Source: Cyanobacterium sp. Dongsha4
GTDB lineage: Bacteria; Cyanobacteriota; Cyanobacteriia; Cyanobacteriales; Cyanobacteriaceae
Length of the DNA: 64,000 nt
Direction of reading: 5' to 3'
Assembly (NCBI RefSeq): GCF_036345015.1
Contig: NZ_CP084098.1
Location: 2,307,326-2,371,325, forward strand
In this document: in pieces, positions 4,467 to 61,773 of the stretch
How positions within the stretch are numbered: position 1 is the first letter of the stretch
Layout: every line of letters starts with the position of its first letter
Translations under genes and position numbers: made by a program
The notes under the pieces: model-generated
What the model was told of the DNA's origin: nothing
Seen by the model: only the letters and a program-made list of their open reading frames with translations
Databases searched by the model: none

Positions 4467-5672
4467 TTAACTAGCTTTAGCTAAATAAACCACAGCCCCT
4501 AAACCAGAAGCCATTTCTTCAGGAGTAATTTTACCATCATGGTTGGCATCAAGGGCATCAAAAACCACATCCGCGCCTGCCCATTCTTCACGGGTAATAA
4601 AACCATCTCCATCTAAATCATAGACATGGAAAATATCATCTACTGCATGGGCTAGGGTTTCTTCTCCTTCTAATCTAGCTAAACGACTAGCTAATAATTG
4701 CTCCAAAGTTTCCAAAGCCTTTGTAAAACCTTTTATGCCCTCGTCTAACTTTTCATTTGCCATCCTGTCCTCACTGTGCATTTTATCAAAAGTCGCTTTG
4801 TCCACAGTAATTTTTTCAATATTCATTTTTTGTGCTTTTTCTACAGACAACTTGAGGGGTAATTCTTCTTCTGTGTTTTGTAATTGCTCTAATAGTTTAG
4901 GAGAAATGGTTAATAAATCACATCCAGCTAACTCACAAATTTCGCTAATATTACGGAAACTAGCTCCCATTACCTCTGTTTTATAACCAAACTTTTTATA
5001 ATAATTGTAGATTTCTGTAACAGATTGTACCCCGGGGTCTTCTGCTCCGGGAAAATCCTCTCTACCCGTTTCTTTTTTGTACCAATCAAGGATTCTACCC
5101 ACAAACGGAGAAATTAAAGTAACTCCCGCTTCGGCACAGGCTACGGCTTGATGGAAACCAAATAAAAGAGTTAAATTACAGTGTATTCCTTCTTTCTCAA
5201 GAACTTCGGCGGCTCTAATTCCTTCCCATGTAGATGCAATTTTGATTAAAATACGCTCCCTACTGATACCTGCTTTTTCATATTGGGAGATTAAATAACG
5301 AGCTTTTTCGATCGTAGCTTCAGTATCATAAGATAAACGGGCATCAACTTCAGTGGAAACCCTCCCCGGCACAATATCAAGAATTTTTCTACCAAAGGCA
5401 ACCGCTAACCAATCAATGGCTAATTTAACCACTTCATCAACCTTCGCATCTGCCCCCAATTCCTTTCTCGCTTCAGTGAGGGTATCATCTACAATACTTT
5501 GATAATCAATCATTTGAGCGGCGGCGGTAATCAGAGATGGATTTGTCGTAGCATCTTGAGGGGTAAAGGTTTCAATGGCTTGAATATCTCCTGTATCCGC
5601 CACAACGGTGGTGTATTGTTTTAATTGATCTAATAAGTTAGTCATAGTAGAAGTTATGTGATGTTTGTCCAT
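4467..5672 (-). CDS. tal: Transaldolase with C-terminal EF-hand pair
   Basis: 401 aa in the long form. Transaldolase moves a dihydroxyacetone unit between sugar phosphates in the pentose phosphate pathway. Seen: DATTNPSLI near the start, the Schiff-base lysine in [12 protein letters not shown] (Lys144 of the long form), CNLTLLF and [12 protein letters not shown]. After the barrel, two EF-hand loops follow, [12 protein letters not shown] (about 352-363) and [12 protein letters not shown] (about 375-386), both with standard calcium-ligand spacing. The Met at residue 10 (5645, MTNLLDQL) is the more likely start, since family proteins begin there. The related gene gnd lies at 15.6-17.1 kb but not in one operon. 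Confidence 0.93.
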
Positions 5673-27893: not shown

Positions 27894-29180
27894 TTAAACC
27901 TCGCCACTGCCGACAACAATTTGTTTAACTGTGGTGAAAGTTTCCAAACTGATTAAGCCTCGGCGATTTCCTTTTTGATTAGAGATGCCTAAAAATACAG
28001 AATTACTACCGGGTAAATAACGATAAAAACGAGGAGAAGAATTAACATATACTAAAGCAGAATCCGTTTCCATAGCAAAAATTCTTCCTTCTTGATAAGA
28101 GTCTGTTATCAAACAATTCGCATGACCACTACTATAATTATTTATCCAAGCAATGGCAGAAGATAAATCATCGACTACACGAAAAGCGATTGTATGGTTT
28201 AAGAAAGGTTTACCCCACATTGGAGTTGAGATTAACTGCAAATGTTCTGGATATTCATTAACTAATATTTCATCACCTAAAAGGGTAAATTTCTGCTCTT
28301 GTAAATGGTTAAATAGACGAGTGATAGAATTAGATTTTTGTTGACAATTAATTAACACTTTTTCGATCGCATTTACTGGATCGGGAATAGTATTATAACT
28401 ATCAGTAATAATATGTTTAACTAACTCCAAATCATGACATAAAGACCAATATAAATAACAATTGCCCATAGCAGATTTTAAAACAGGGGCAGTGGCAAAT
28501 TGAGTCACTTCTTGAATTAAACTAGGTCGTCCATAGGGTATGATGAGGTTGATATATTGATCCTGAGTTACTAAGTCTTCAATTTTAAAGCCCTGTTCAG
28601 AAGGTAAAAACTGTAAACAATATGACGGAAAATCAACGTCTTCTAAAGCAATTTGTAAAGCCTGAGCAATGATAGAATTAGTGTTACTCGCTTCGCTACT
28701 ACCTCGCAAAATGAGGGAATTGCCCGTTTTCATCGCTAAACCAGCAGTAATAATGGCTAGTTCGGGTAAAGCCTCGTAAATCAAAGCTATAACCCCTAAA
28801 GGCATTAATTGGGAGTAATTTTGACAATATGTGACTTGATAAGGAGAATTAATAACTTTTTGAAAAGGGTCTGGTAACTCAGCTAAAGTCTCAAGTATTT
28901 CGATCGCACTTTCCAATCTTTGAGGAGTTAACTTTAACCAATTAGAAATTAATTCAGGTACAGCCATTTCCTTGCTAATTTCTAAATCAAGGGTATTAGC
29001 CTGTAAAATATCATCAAGGCACTCTTTGAGTTTTATCGCCATTTGCCTAATAGCCTGAGAACGTTCAACGCCTTTGATACTGCCCATTTCAATAAATGCT
29101 TGGTGTGCCCGTTGGGTAACAATATCAATCGGTTGCAATTCAGAATCATTCATAATACTAAAGTTAGCGGCTATAAACAA
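27894..29180 (-). CDS. Divergent ProA-like protein lacking the catalytic cysteine
   Basis: 428 aa, gamma-glutamyl phosphate reductase (ALDH superfamily) in length and overall order: GVIALIYEALPE, KTGNSLILRGSSEA, LIIPYGRPSL, VYVNSSPRF, and a terminal GLISLETFTTVKQIVVG. The motif that carries the nucleophile in ProA (CNAIETLLV) here reads PDPVNAIEKVLI, with Val269 in place of cysteine. Other family residues also drift (YEALPE for YEARPN). It is probably not an active glutamate-semialdehyde dehydrogenase, so a separate true proA is expected elsewhere. Met10 (29153, MNDSELQ) is the better start, avoiding overlap with the gene upstream. Confidence 0.82.
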   Translation of the reverse strand: MFIAANFSIMNDSELQPIDIVTQRAHQAFIEMGSIKGVERSQAIRQMAIKLKECLDDILQANTLDLEISKEMAVPELISNWLKLTPQRLESAIEILETLAELPDPFQKVINSPYQVTYCQNYSQLMPLGVIALIYEALPELAIITAGLAMKTGNSLILRGSSEASNTNSIIAQALQIALEDVDFPSYCLQFLPSEQGFKIEDLVTQDQYINLIIPYGRPSLIQEVTQFATAPVLKSAMGNCYLYWSLCHDLELVKHIITDSYNTIPDPVNAIEKVLINCQQKSNSITRLFNHLQEQKFTLLGDEILVNEYPEHLQLISTPMWGKPFLNHTIAFRVVDDLSSAIAWINNYSSGHANCLITDSYQEGRIFAMETDSALVYVNSSPRFYRYLPGSNSVFLGISNQKGNRRGLISLETFTTVKQIVVGSGEV

Positions 29181-29568
29181 ACCACAAAGAAAAACAAACT
29201 GATAGAAATATCAATCCCACCATCATACCAGAGATTAAGTTAAATCCCCCCGTCAAGGTAATTAGTAATGGAGTAGCAACCAAAACAGAAAAGAAAAAGC
29301 AAACAATTCCTAAGAGAAAATAACTTTCCTGCCAAGGTTTTTGCGCACTTATCCAACGCTTTCCTAACCAACGCCATCTTTTTTTATAGGGATAAGTTGG
29401 GTTGAGTTGTTCGATATATTCTTTGTTTTCTGCCAAGACAAAAATTTGTTGACATTTATCGCACCCCATCGCTTCTGTAAGGATAATGGGCTTTAGTCTT
29501 CCTTTACGACGACAAGGGCAGGGGTATTCACAGTTTAGATCAATGGGAGTATTTTTTCGCAGACGCAC
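29164..29568 (-). CDS. Zinc-ribbon membrane protein of unknown function
   Basis: 134 aa. Four cysteines in two pairs, CEYPCPC…and CDKC, form a likely zinc ribbon in the first 40 residues. Two transmembrane segments follow (about 84-104 and 108-131). It is the gene just upstream of the ProA-like gene and is close or overlapping depending on that gene's start, so the two are probably one transcript. Not recognised beyond cyanobacterial hypothetical. Confidence 0.65.
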   Translation of the reverse strand: MRLRKNTPIDLNCEYPCPCRRKGRLKPIILTEAMGCDKCQQIFVLAENKEYIEQLNPTYPYKKRWRWLGKRWISAQKPWQESYFLLGIVCFFFSVLVATPLLITLTGGFNLISGMMVGLIFLSVCFSLWFVYSR

Positions 29569-39725: not shown

Positions 39726-40142
39726 TCAACTAAGTAATGTTAGTCTTTGATTTATTAACGAATCGATCGTTCCATTTACTCTAAATTTTGCAAATAGTCC
39801 CATTGTTAAATCCACCATTTCTATTGATTTTGATACTACTTTTGTTTTTCTATGAAAGCGAGCAAACCAATGACGATTATCGGAATTATTTCTTTCTATG
39901 GCTATAGTTTCGCTTTTTGTCATCACATGATACGCATCTGGATGTTTAGATAATAACTCTTGGTACGGTTTCCAATCATCAGTACAGTAGACTGTTACAT
40001 CCCATTTTAGTAATCTAATTAAAAGTTTTTTGAGGGTTTCACTATCACGCTTTCCCAATTCCCAGTCGATAAGTCTGTTAGTATTACGGTCATAAGCTTT
40101 CCAGATCCATAACTTGTTTTTTTTGACTCTATAAAATGCCAA
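39726..40142 (-). CDS. IS1 transposase, InsB-like second frame
   Basis: 138 aa; the catalytic half. Residues WIWKAYDRNTNRLIDWELGKRD and the later TDDWKPY, KSETIAIERNNSDNRHWFARFHRKTKVVSKS match IS1-family InsB, with the DDE-type Asp, Asp and Glu candidates visible. The first Met shown is not the true start: translation should enter by -1 frameshift from InsA at the A8C run. The stop TGA falls at the element's end. Confidence 0.87.
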   Translation of the reverse strand: MAFYRVKKNKLWIWKAYDRNTNRLIDWELGKRDSETLKKLLIRLLKWDVTVYCTDDWKPYQELLSKHPDAYHVMTKSETIAIERNNSDNRHWFARFHRKTKVVSKSIEMVDLTMGLFAKFRVNGTIDSLINQRLTLLS

Positions 40143-40450
40143 AGTTCATCTAGTTCCACAACCACCGCTTCGCAGGGTTCAGGCTTTTCATAATTTTCTA
40201 GTGCCAAAGCTCTAATCCAATTTAAAATAGTCTGAGCAGAAACATTGAGAAGCTTTGCGATCGAATTCATAGACATTCCACTGCAATACAGAATTGCTGT
40301 TTCTAGTTTCATCCACATAGGTTTACCTCGATCAATCTTATCAGTGGTGAACTGATAGTTACAGTGCTTACATTTAAACCTTTGTTGACCACGAGCAAAA
40401 CCGTTTTTGATGATTTTAGTATTATGACATCGAGGGCATTGATGAGACAT
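40019..40450 (-). CDS. IS1 transposase, InsA-like first frame
   Basis: 143 aa; N-terminal zinc ribbon CPRCHNTKIIKNG…QRFKCKHC and helix-turn-helix GMSMNSIAKLLNVSAQTILNWI, as in InsA. InsA alone binds the ends and represses. It overlaps the InsB frame by 124 bp, and a frameshift to -1 at the poly-A run would join ELWHFIESKK to NKLWIWKAY, giving the full transposase. Confidence 0.88.
   Translation of the reverse strand: MSHQCPRCHNTKIIKNGFARGQQRFKCKHCNYQFTTDKIDRGKPMWMKLETAILYCSGMSMNSIAKLLNVSAQTILNWIRALALENYEKPEPCEAVVVELDELWHFIESKKTSYGSGKLMTVILTDLSTGNWESVIVKPSKNF
40116..40124 (-). promoter_or_regulatory. Programmed -1 frameshift site in IS1 transposase
   Basis: Minus strand reads AAAAAAAAC across the InsA/InsB junction, equivalent to the A6C slippery heptamer of IS1. 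InsA reads TCA AAA AAA ACA; after a -1 slip the frame reads AAA AAA AAC AAG and continues as InsB. Confidence 0.8.
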
Positions 40451-60894: not shown

Positions 60895-61773
60895 TTAACG
60901 GGGAATCACACAACGAATACCGTGTTTTTTTCCTTGATTATCTCCTCGATAGCGAGGGATTAAATGAATATGGGTATGTTTAACTTTTTGCCCTCCTGCT
61001 TGATTAACATTAAAACCAATATTAAACCCATCAGGTTGATATTTTGCACAGATGATTTCTTTTACTCTATTCACCATTTGCCAACAGTGACTTTGTAAGG
61101 AAAAAGATAAATTAAAATAATTTTCTTCGTGATGTTTAGGAATAATTAAACTATGTCCTTTAGTTAAGGGATAACCATCTAAAATTGCATAAGCTAAAGT
61201 TGATTCTGTGAGTAAAGTTAGCTTAGGATAAGGTTTACAGAAAATACAAGAAAGAGATGAATGTTTAATTTGATTAAAATGTTGATACTCATAAATTTCG
61301 CAAGACTCATCAAGATGTATGGATTTAAAAGGTAGTTTAACTAATCTTTGATAGGTTTTTTTTTCATAAACATAATGGTTTCTAAATCCTTCTATTTTTA
61401 TATCCCTTCTCACGGCAAAATAAGCCTTTCCTTTCGGCTTTAAAAGTTGTGATATATTCATAATCACTTCTTCTTGACTTTCTAAAAACAAAACATTTAA
61501 GACATAAAAACAGAGTATTGTATCAAACTTCTCTTGAGGGTATTGAGGGTAATAATGAGGATCATAACCAATAATTTCATAGCCTTTTTTTGAGAGTATT
61601 TCCACATCTTTACCAAAACCGCAACCAAAATCGAGCATATTACCTTTTAACAGTTTTTTTCGATGTAAATATCTTGCAGGAAATGACAATTTTTCCCTTT
61701 CAATTGCCGTTAGATGACTATATTTATTCTCCATTGATTTAATATTAATAACAAATTTAGGTAGGATATTCAC
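60895..61773 (-). CDS. Bifunctional class I methyltransferase / HIT-family protein
   Basis: 292 aa. The N-terminal half is a class I SAM-dependent methyltransferase (LDFGCGFGKDVEIL; later FDTILCFYVLNVL). The C-terminal half is a HIT domain: CIFCKPYPK, YPLTKGHSLIIPKHH, and the triad motif HTHIHLIPRY. HIT proteins hydrolyse nucleotide-linked phosphate esters. This fusion is known in bacteria. The Met at residue 14 (61734, MENKYSHL) is a likely start. Acceptor substrate unknown. Confidence 0.88.
   Translation of the reverse strand: MNILPKFVINIKSMENKYSHLTAIEREKLSFPARYLHRKKLLKGNMLDFGCGFGKDVEILSKKGYEIIGYDPHYYPQYPQEKFDTILCFYVLNVLFLESQEEVIMNISQLLKPKGKAYFAVRRDIKIEGFRNHYVYEKKTYQRLVKLPFKSIHLDESCEIYEYQHFNQIKHSSLSCIFCKPYPKLTLLTESTLAYAILDGYPLTKGHSLIIPKHHEENYFNLSFSLQSHCWQMVNRVKEIICAKYQPDGFNIGFNVNQAGGQKVKHTHIHLIPRYRGDNQGKKHGIRCVIPR

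Follow-up and report, generated by a model that had tools for sequence, protein, structure and literature searches.

A ProA-like protein of cyanobacteria with a replaced catalytic cysteine, encoded beside a small predicted membrane protein

The closest described relatives of the protein considered here are ProA, the gamma-glutamyl phosphate reductase (GPR) or glutamate-5-semialdehyde dehydrogenase of proline synthesis, and the GPR domain of P5CS (ALDH18A1). Roles of active-site residues in ProA and GPR have been assigned, among other sources, in the cited part of PMC8963878. D715 of Drosophila P5CS is described as a G5P-binding residue (PMC11061531), Glu383 of the E. coli enzyme as the specificity Glu (PMC4271523), and an Arg of the REE loop (Drosophila R525) as a contact to the adenine of NADP(H) (PMC8963878); this loop is reported to be less conserved in stand-alone GPRs (PMC11061531). 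The tabulated part of a ProA survey assigns a single ProA to each of 27 cyanobacterial species (PMC11061531), and a study of Synechocystis measured two genes named proA, both of which rise on nitrogen starvation (PMC12386471). Enzyme relatives without catalytic activity are known from other organisms. For instance, the human aldehyde dehydrogenase (ALDH) pseudoenzyme ALDH16A1 is described as lacking catalytic residues, binding maspardin and being located at the cell membrane (PMC10650815). Another example is the AdoMetDC prozyme of trypanosomes, a dead paralogue kept beside the active enzyme, for which it reportedly acts as activator (PMC6221367). Among the matches listed from titles and abstract openings of the non-subscription literature, none describes a cyanobacterial ProA without its Cys, and looking for ProA in passages of the CyanoTag paper (PMC11804935) gave no hit.

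The window is a stretch of 64,000 nucleotides from Cyanobacterium sp. Dongsha4 (NZ_CP084098.1, positions 2,307,326 to 2,371,325). It contains a ProA-like open reading frame at 27894-29180 on the minus strand, which runs for 428 codons from a TTG at 29180 to its stop and is open throughout. This TTG is only the first start codon of the frame and overlaps the gene upstream; an ATG at 29153, 10 bases past the stop of that gene, is the likelier start. Residues of the protein (V269 and others) are numbered from TTG 29180. The relevant features are as follows.

27894..29153, minus strand (the frame reaches to TTG 29180): ProA-like putative pseudoenzyme gene, from its open reading frame, homology and fold
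28374..28376, minus strand: GTA codon of Val269, aligned with the catalytic Cys
28020..28022, minus strand: codon of Arg387, aligned with an Asp of 66/66 ProAs
27993..27995, minus strand: codon of Phe396, aligned with a Glu of 66/66 ProAs (E. coli Glu383, T. maritima Glu381)

Three other features of the window were noted by eye, all on the minus strand: two overlapping frames at 39726-40450 that resemble an IS1-type transposase made by frameshifting, an ORF at 60895-61773 resembling a methyltransferase-type domain fused to a HIT-type domain, and a transaldolase-like ORF at 4467-5672 with apparent C-terminal EF-hand motifs.

Homology to ProA extends over the full length of the window protein. 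Pfam returns Aldedh, and the 428 aa match only the GPR part of TIGR01092, with no fused glutamate kinase domain. The protein scores below both NCBIfam ProA cut-offs (282.9 against 289 bits and 242.1 against 317.45 bits). At least one of the 37 paralogue members scanned matches the first of these models better (best E 3e-104), and some member may pass its cut-off. By sequence and by fold alike, the closest solved relative is T. maritima ProA (1o20): a Foldseek search with the predicted model (mean pLDDT 77.7) matched 1o20 at E 3e-31 with a TM of 0.68 and an rmsd of 6.6, and ranks 1-18 were all ProA or P5CS. Where the C-terminal portion lines the pocket the model is of low confidence (pLDDT 31-43), so statements on the pocket are drawn from the sequence. 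The same genome encodes ProB and one further homologue of the window protein, a true, Cys-bearing ProA that is 30% identical to it and scores 567 and 561 bits with the two NCBIfam models, far over their cut-offs. An identity of about 30% also holds between the paralogue and cyanobacterial ProA.

The nucleophile region reads PDPVNAIEKVLI in the window protein and PAACNAIETLLI in the ProA of the same genome. Val occupies the nucleophile position, followed by Asn, in 110/110 aligned orthologous rows, which fall into 76 groups when clustered at 95% identity and include near-copies of one genome from two sources. A copy 98% identical to the window protein (L003), found in a genome of the same genus, likewise has Val, and the 15 more divergent members all lack Cys at this position, having V, I, A or G instead. 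The ProAs compared carry Cys in 66/66 cases (45 from class Cyanobacteriia, 13 from other classes of the phylum and 8 plasmid-borne outgroup genes, with one identical pair, L135 and L172), equivalent to Cys255 of T. maritima and C598 of Drosophila P5CS. Because Val recurs in every orthologous row, the same-genus copy included, and Cys in every ProA, the substitution is not a matter of chance or sequencing error. By this alignment, the loss of the nucleophile is old and fixed.

Other residues of the site have been exchanged as consistently. They were compared in 28 paralogues, that is, 31 of the 125 paralogue rows less three very divergent ones (L120, L122, L126), against the same 66 ProAs, in all of which each of the following residues is present. 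The catalytic Cys is replaced by Val in 27 and Ile in one; the Arg of IPRG by Tyr, an invariant His by Tyr and an invariant Asp by Arg, each in 28/28; the specificity Glu by Phe (22) or Ala (6); and the Arg of EARP by Phe (20) or Leu (8). The Asp position, now Arg387, is taken to be that of Drosophila D715, a mapping of R712/D715 that follows from a near-constant offset to chain 7f5t. In the G5P-binding pair of ProA the Arg is retained in 26/28 paralogues and the Asp has become Arg in all 28. Asn 270 (28/28), Arg 384 (26/28) and much of the framework are kept, and Lys stands at K274 in 110/110 paralogues as it does in T. maritima ProA. It is well supported by these comparisons that the ProA catalytic set has been lost and that the active site has been largely rebuilt with mostly fixed new residues rather than merely worn. 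The first-pass annotation had described an intact, full-length ProA paralogue with Val at the nucleophile, and this is borne out. It had also spoken of drift at other active-site residues; several have indeed changed, but the word understates the matter, for the replacements are themselves conserved.

On balance, the best explanation, which we hold to be slightly better than an even call, is a ProA-derived pseudoenzyme of ALDH fold that works with a small membrane protein encoded upstream. Its parts differ in strength. The alignments make it very probable that the paralogue lacks ProA activity; a functional partnership with the membrane protein is fairly probable; and sensing of a ligand by the re-lined pocket is a tentative and rather unlikely addition. 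Under this explanation the paralogue would no longer make glutamate semialdehyde. Probably oligomeric, it would dock on the membrane protein at a cytosolic metal-ribbon head, and its pocket might hold a metabolite without reducing it; the pair would then form a membrane-tethered scaffold or sensor. The regulatory or non-catalytic role proposed at first pass agrees with the loss of the catalytic set and with purifying selection; the role itself goes a step beyond both, and a different chemistry might be served.

The linkage of the putative pseudoenzyme to this small membrane-protein gene is new here and was absent from the first-pass annotation. The features of the small gene, and of related loci discussed below, are listed here.

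29164..29568, minus strand: small gene upstream of the pseudoenzyme gene, 134 aa, with CxC...CxxC and two predicted membrane helices
29440..29526, minus strand: CPC...CDKCQQIF motif, residues 15-43 of the small protein
29170..29331, minus strand: two predicted transmembrane helices, residues 80-104 and 108-133 of the small protein
L162:3403-3792 and L163:4365-4655: decaying small genes in diatom endosymbionts
L164:656-1855 (Pfam) and L165:2408-3601 (by eye), same strand as the ProA-like gene: HcyBio genes

The CPC...CDKCQQIF motif would bind metal, and the CxC...CxxC arrangement is what we take to be a putative zinc ribbon. No Pfam family scored above cut-off for the small protein (COX14 at E 0.23 and DUF2207_C at E 0.3 lie below it), nor did any NCBIfam family match, and a fold search gave no structural match (best E 1.7). 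A correspondence to Synechocystis sll0372, guessed via gene numbering, was rejected: that protein is given as 196 aa and as one of the proteins of all sequenced cyanobacteria in the part of PMC2823733 cited, which disagrees with the distribution of the small gene. A second, divergent family with CxC/CxxC and two helices (E ~1e-15) occurs elsewhere in many of these genomes (for instance L153:4559-5050, L154:4264-4782 and L155:4431-4925), and adjoins a DnaJ-like gene in 3/7 loci compared, the DnaJ assignment coming from Pfam in L154, where there are pentapeptide repeats as well.

A homologue of the small gene lies upstream of the paralogue, on the same strand, in 106/110 loci, a count that includes four rows from two genomes in which the small gene is damaged. 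Two of the four exceptions are cut by contig ends; the other two, in Prochloron didemni and Ca. Paraprochloron, have no matching ORF. Likewise, the small gene was beside the paralogue on the same strand in 20/20 genomes tested, ten of them divergent. A separate search for the small gene in 386 genomes of the phylum (E up to 1e-20) gave 121 positives, 118 of them with the paralogue, with stops in three of the 118 small genes (two from endosymbionts); two further genomes have a weak match only, taken to be the second family. Across the 186 genomes of class Cyanobacteriia, 118 have both genes, six the paralogue only, three the small gene only and 59 neither. When family f25 is taken out these counts become 118/6/3/2, and the association is weak (p 0.03). 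The two genes are predicted to be co-transcribed.

These data bear on the leading alternative, according to which the gene order is inherited without a shared function and the paralogue acts alone, a possibility of rather low probability. A mirror-tree-type test of co-evolution on 20 genomes was negative: with a partial r of 0.11, reached by 505/2000 permutations, the distances of the two proteins correlate only as shared ancestry predicts. Moreover, two Epithemia/Rhopalodia endosymbionts have a decaying small gene, with stops and altered Cys motifs, beside an intact ProA-like gene. Among the endosymbiont genomes of the set, G145 and G181 are taken to be those of Epithemia turgida and Rhopalodia gibberula, and G266 that of E. 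clementina. Other genes are also often near the pair. However, in 46 non-redundant loci the small gene adjoins the paralogue in 45, and the next neighbour families reach 28, 25 and 24. Taken together, the negative co-evolution test and the endosymbionts that keep the paralogue with a broken partner show that the link is not obligatory, strong as it is.

The neighbourhood yielded observations of its own. The three neighbour families just counted are, in order, ribH-like, desaturase and Met_gamma_lyase genes, and a psbZ-like gene lies upstream in 33/110 loci of the pair. The names psbZ and ribH are presumed, and ribH was recognised by eye; Pfam searches on single examples of neighbours returned Ycf9, FA_desaturase, Met_gamma_lyase, HcyBio and DnaJ. 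Two family-f9 genomes that lack the small gene have a gene of the HcyBio family (PF01837, homocysteine biosynthesis) upstream of the ProA-like gene on the same strand; the ORFs of the 110 loci include no HcyBio gene.

A second alternative, which we consider unlikely, is that the protein is a neofunctionalised enzyme whose fold runs a different reaction, for example with C241 or with the new Arg and Tyr residues. The replacements are conserved rather than random, the paralogue is under purifying selection, and C241 is present in 109/110 paralogue rows. But the same Cys is equally invariant in ProAs (66/66), whose nucleophile is the other Cys, and C241 is therefore no obvious substitute; it is also T or G in the most divergent paralogues (L122-L127). 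Alignment with ProA orthologues offers no other candidate, C241 being the sole other conserved Cys. On the cofactor side, the REE-loop Arg found in 65/66 ProAs is not conserved as Arg in the paralogue, where the loop aligns ambiguously: opposite it stands G197 (Gly in 23/28) or, in another alignment, E195 (E in 60, D in 49 and G in 1 of 110).

Compared with the pseudoenzyme working with its membrane partner, a more specific proposal is a two-gene membrane module in which the inactive ProA would sense a nitrogen or carbon metabolite and signal via the metal-ribbon membrane protein. This is doubtful. To the same doubtful degree, such a receptor would have evolved from a proline enzyme by exchanges in its pocket (Cys to Val, Asp to Arg, Glu to Phe, Arg to Tyr) and be present in much of Cyanobacteriia. 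Both positive and negative residues are lost through the replacements, which therefore do not point to one kind of ligand, and this lowers the probability of a metabolite receptor. For the pocket as a whole, the description "more basic" or "anion-binding" was considered and dropped: the change of Asp to Arg adds positive charge, but the ProA-invariant Arg residues of IPRG and EARP and a Lys are lost, and the Lys at K274 is shared with T. maritima ProA.

The paralogue could instead be a regulatory subunit of proline synthesis that tunes flux as a hetero-oligomer with the real ProA or ProB, in the way that inactive paralogues regulate other enzymes, which we regard as improbable. It is homologous to ProA, kinetic analysis has been taken to suggest a bacterial GK-GPR complex (in the cited part of PMC8963878), and the nitrogen response of both Synechocystis genes (PMC12386471) would agree with it. 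Against this, the gene is linked to that of a predicted membrane protein, and in its own genome the paralogue adjoins neither proA nor proB. Its distribution is also at odds with such a role. Among the 386 genomes searched (threshold E up to 1e-20), it was found in 124 of the 186 from class Cyanobacteriia; the remaining 62 have no paralogue match, and the seven of them inspected all carry ProA. Those 62 comprise all 57 genomes of family f25 (1.6-3.7 Mb) and five others, each with a single match only, at ProA-like similarity. Persistence of the paralogue in genomes lacking ProA was considered and dropped; G051 and G282 show no ProA match, but the stretch beside proB in G282 is mostly N.

In genomes of other classes, the top match is a ProA (G154) with 33% identity. 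Matches in 26 phage and 93 plasmid records all lie under 60% identity to the paralogue, the highest among the best 10 of the 26 phage and best 40 of the 93 plasmid matches being 34%. A quick tree of 97 rows places the paralogues in a single clan (SH-aLRT 100) outside the sampled ProAs; the tree is midpoint-rooted and carries a long-branch warning, with L126, L122 and L116 on very long branches. A duplication of cyanobacterial proA within the class finds no support in this tree, in which the paralogue clan is not nested in cyanobacterial ProA. The paralogue is widespread and apparently old in Cyanobacteriia, and it is intact even in genome-reduced diatom endosymbionts.

Purifying selection on the paralogue is well supported. 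A Nei-Gojobori script was applied to genome pairs, and for the six in which both genes have a dS below 1 the dN/dS values (paralogue/ProA) are 0.032/0.066, 0.086/0.098, 0.095/0.113, 0.045/0.146, 0.072/0.160 and 0.057/0.151, the last three being among three diatom endosymbionts and thus not independent. The paralogue values (0.032-0.095) are below that of ProA in every pair, and loss of selection is not seen. Between more distant genomes the paralogue has changed more than ProA (for instance 54-56% against 64-69% identity between the family of the window and other families of its order). A decaying pseudogene or assembly artefact, which the loss of catalytic residues alone would favour, is refuted by dN/dS far below 1, the lack of internal stops in nearly all members and the same residue in 110/110 rows, and its probability is negligible.

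Because the scores of the paralogue are near the NCBI cut-off, and for some members probably above it, the gene can easily receive the annotation of a second proA. One of the Synechocystis genes of that name (sll0373 or sll0461) is presumably the Cys-less paralogue. If the protein is a pseudoenzyme, any model or expression study in which both genes count as proA would be wrong for one of them, and cyanobacteria would have a two-gene module that is widely conserved and offers a clear partner to test.

In comparison with known systems, the paralogue shares full-length homology and fold with ProA. It differs in the replaced catalytic Cys, substrate Asp, specificity Glu, IPRG Arg and other residues, and the window protein is under both NCBIfam cut-offs; despite the homology, it appears from its residues to fail the functional features of the ProA family that were tested. 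The GPR domain of P5CS is also homologous, but the paralogue has neither the fused glutamate kinase nor the Cys. With the AdoMetDC prozyme it would have in common a catalytically dead paralogue preserved alongside an active enzyme, although nothing indicates that the cyanobacterial protein pairs with ProA. ALDH16A1 is a different ALDH, whereas the best structural matches of the paralogue are ProA and P5CS, and the putative partner here is a bacterial protein of no known family. By its description, ALDH16A1 is alike in one feature: in both, the ALDH fold is kept and the catalytic residues are absent.
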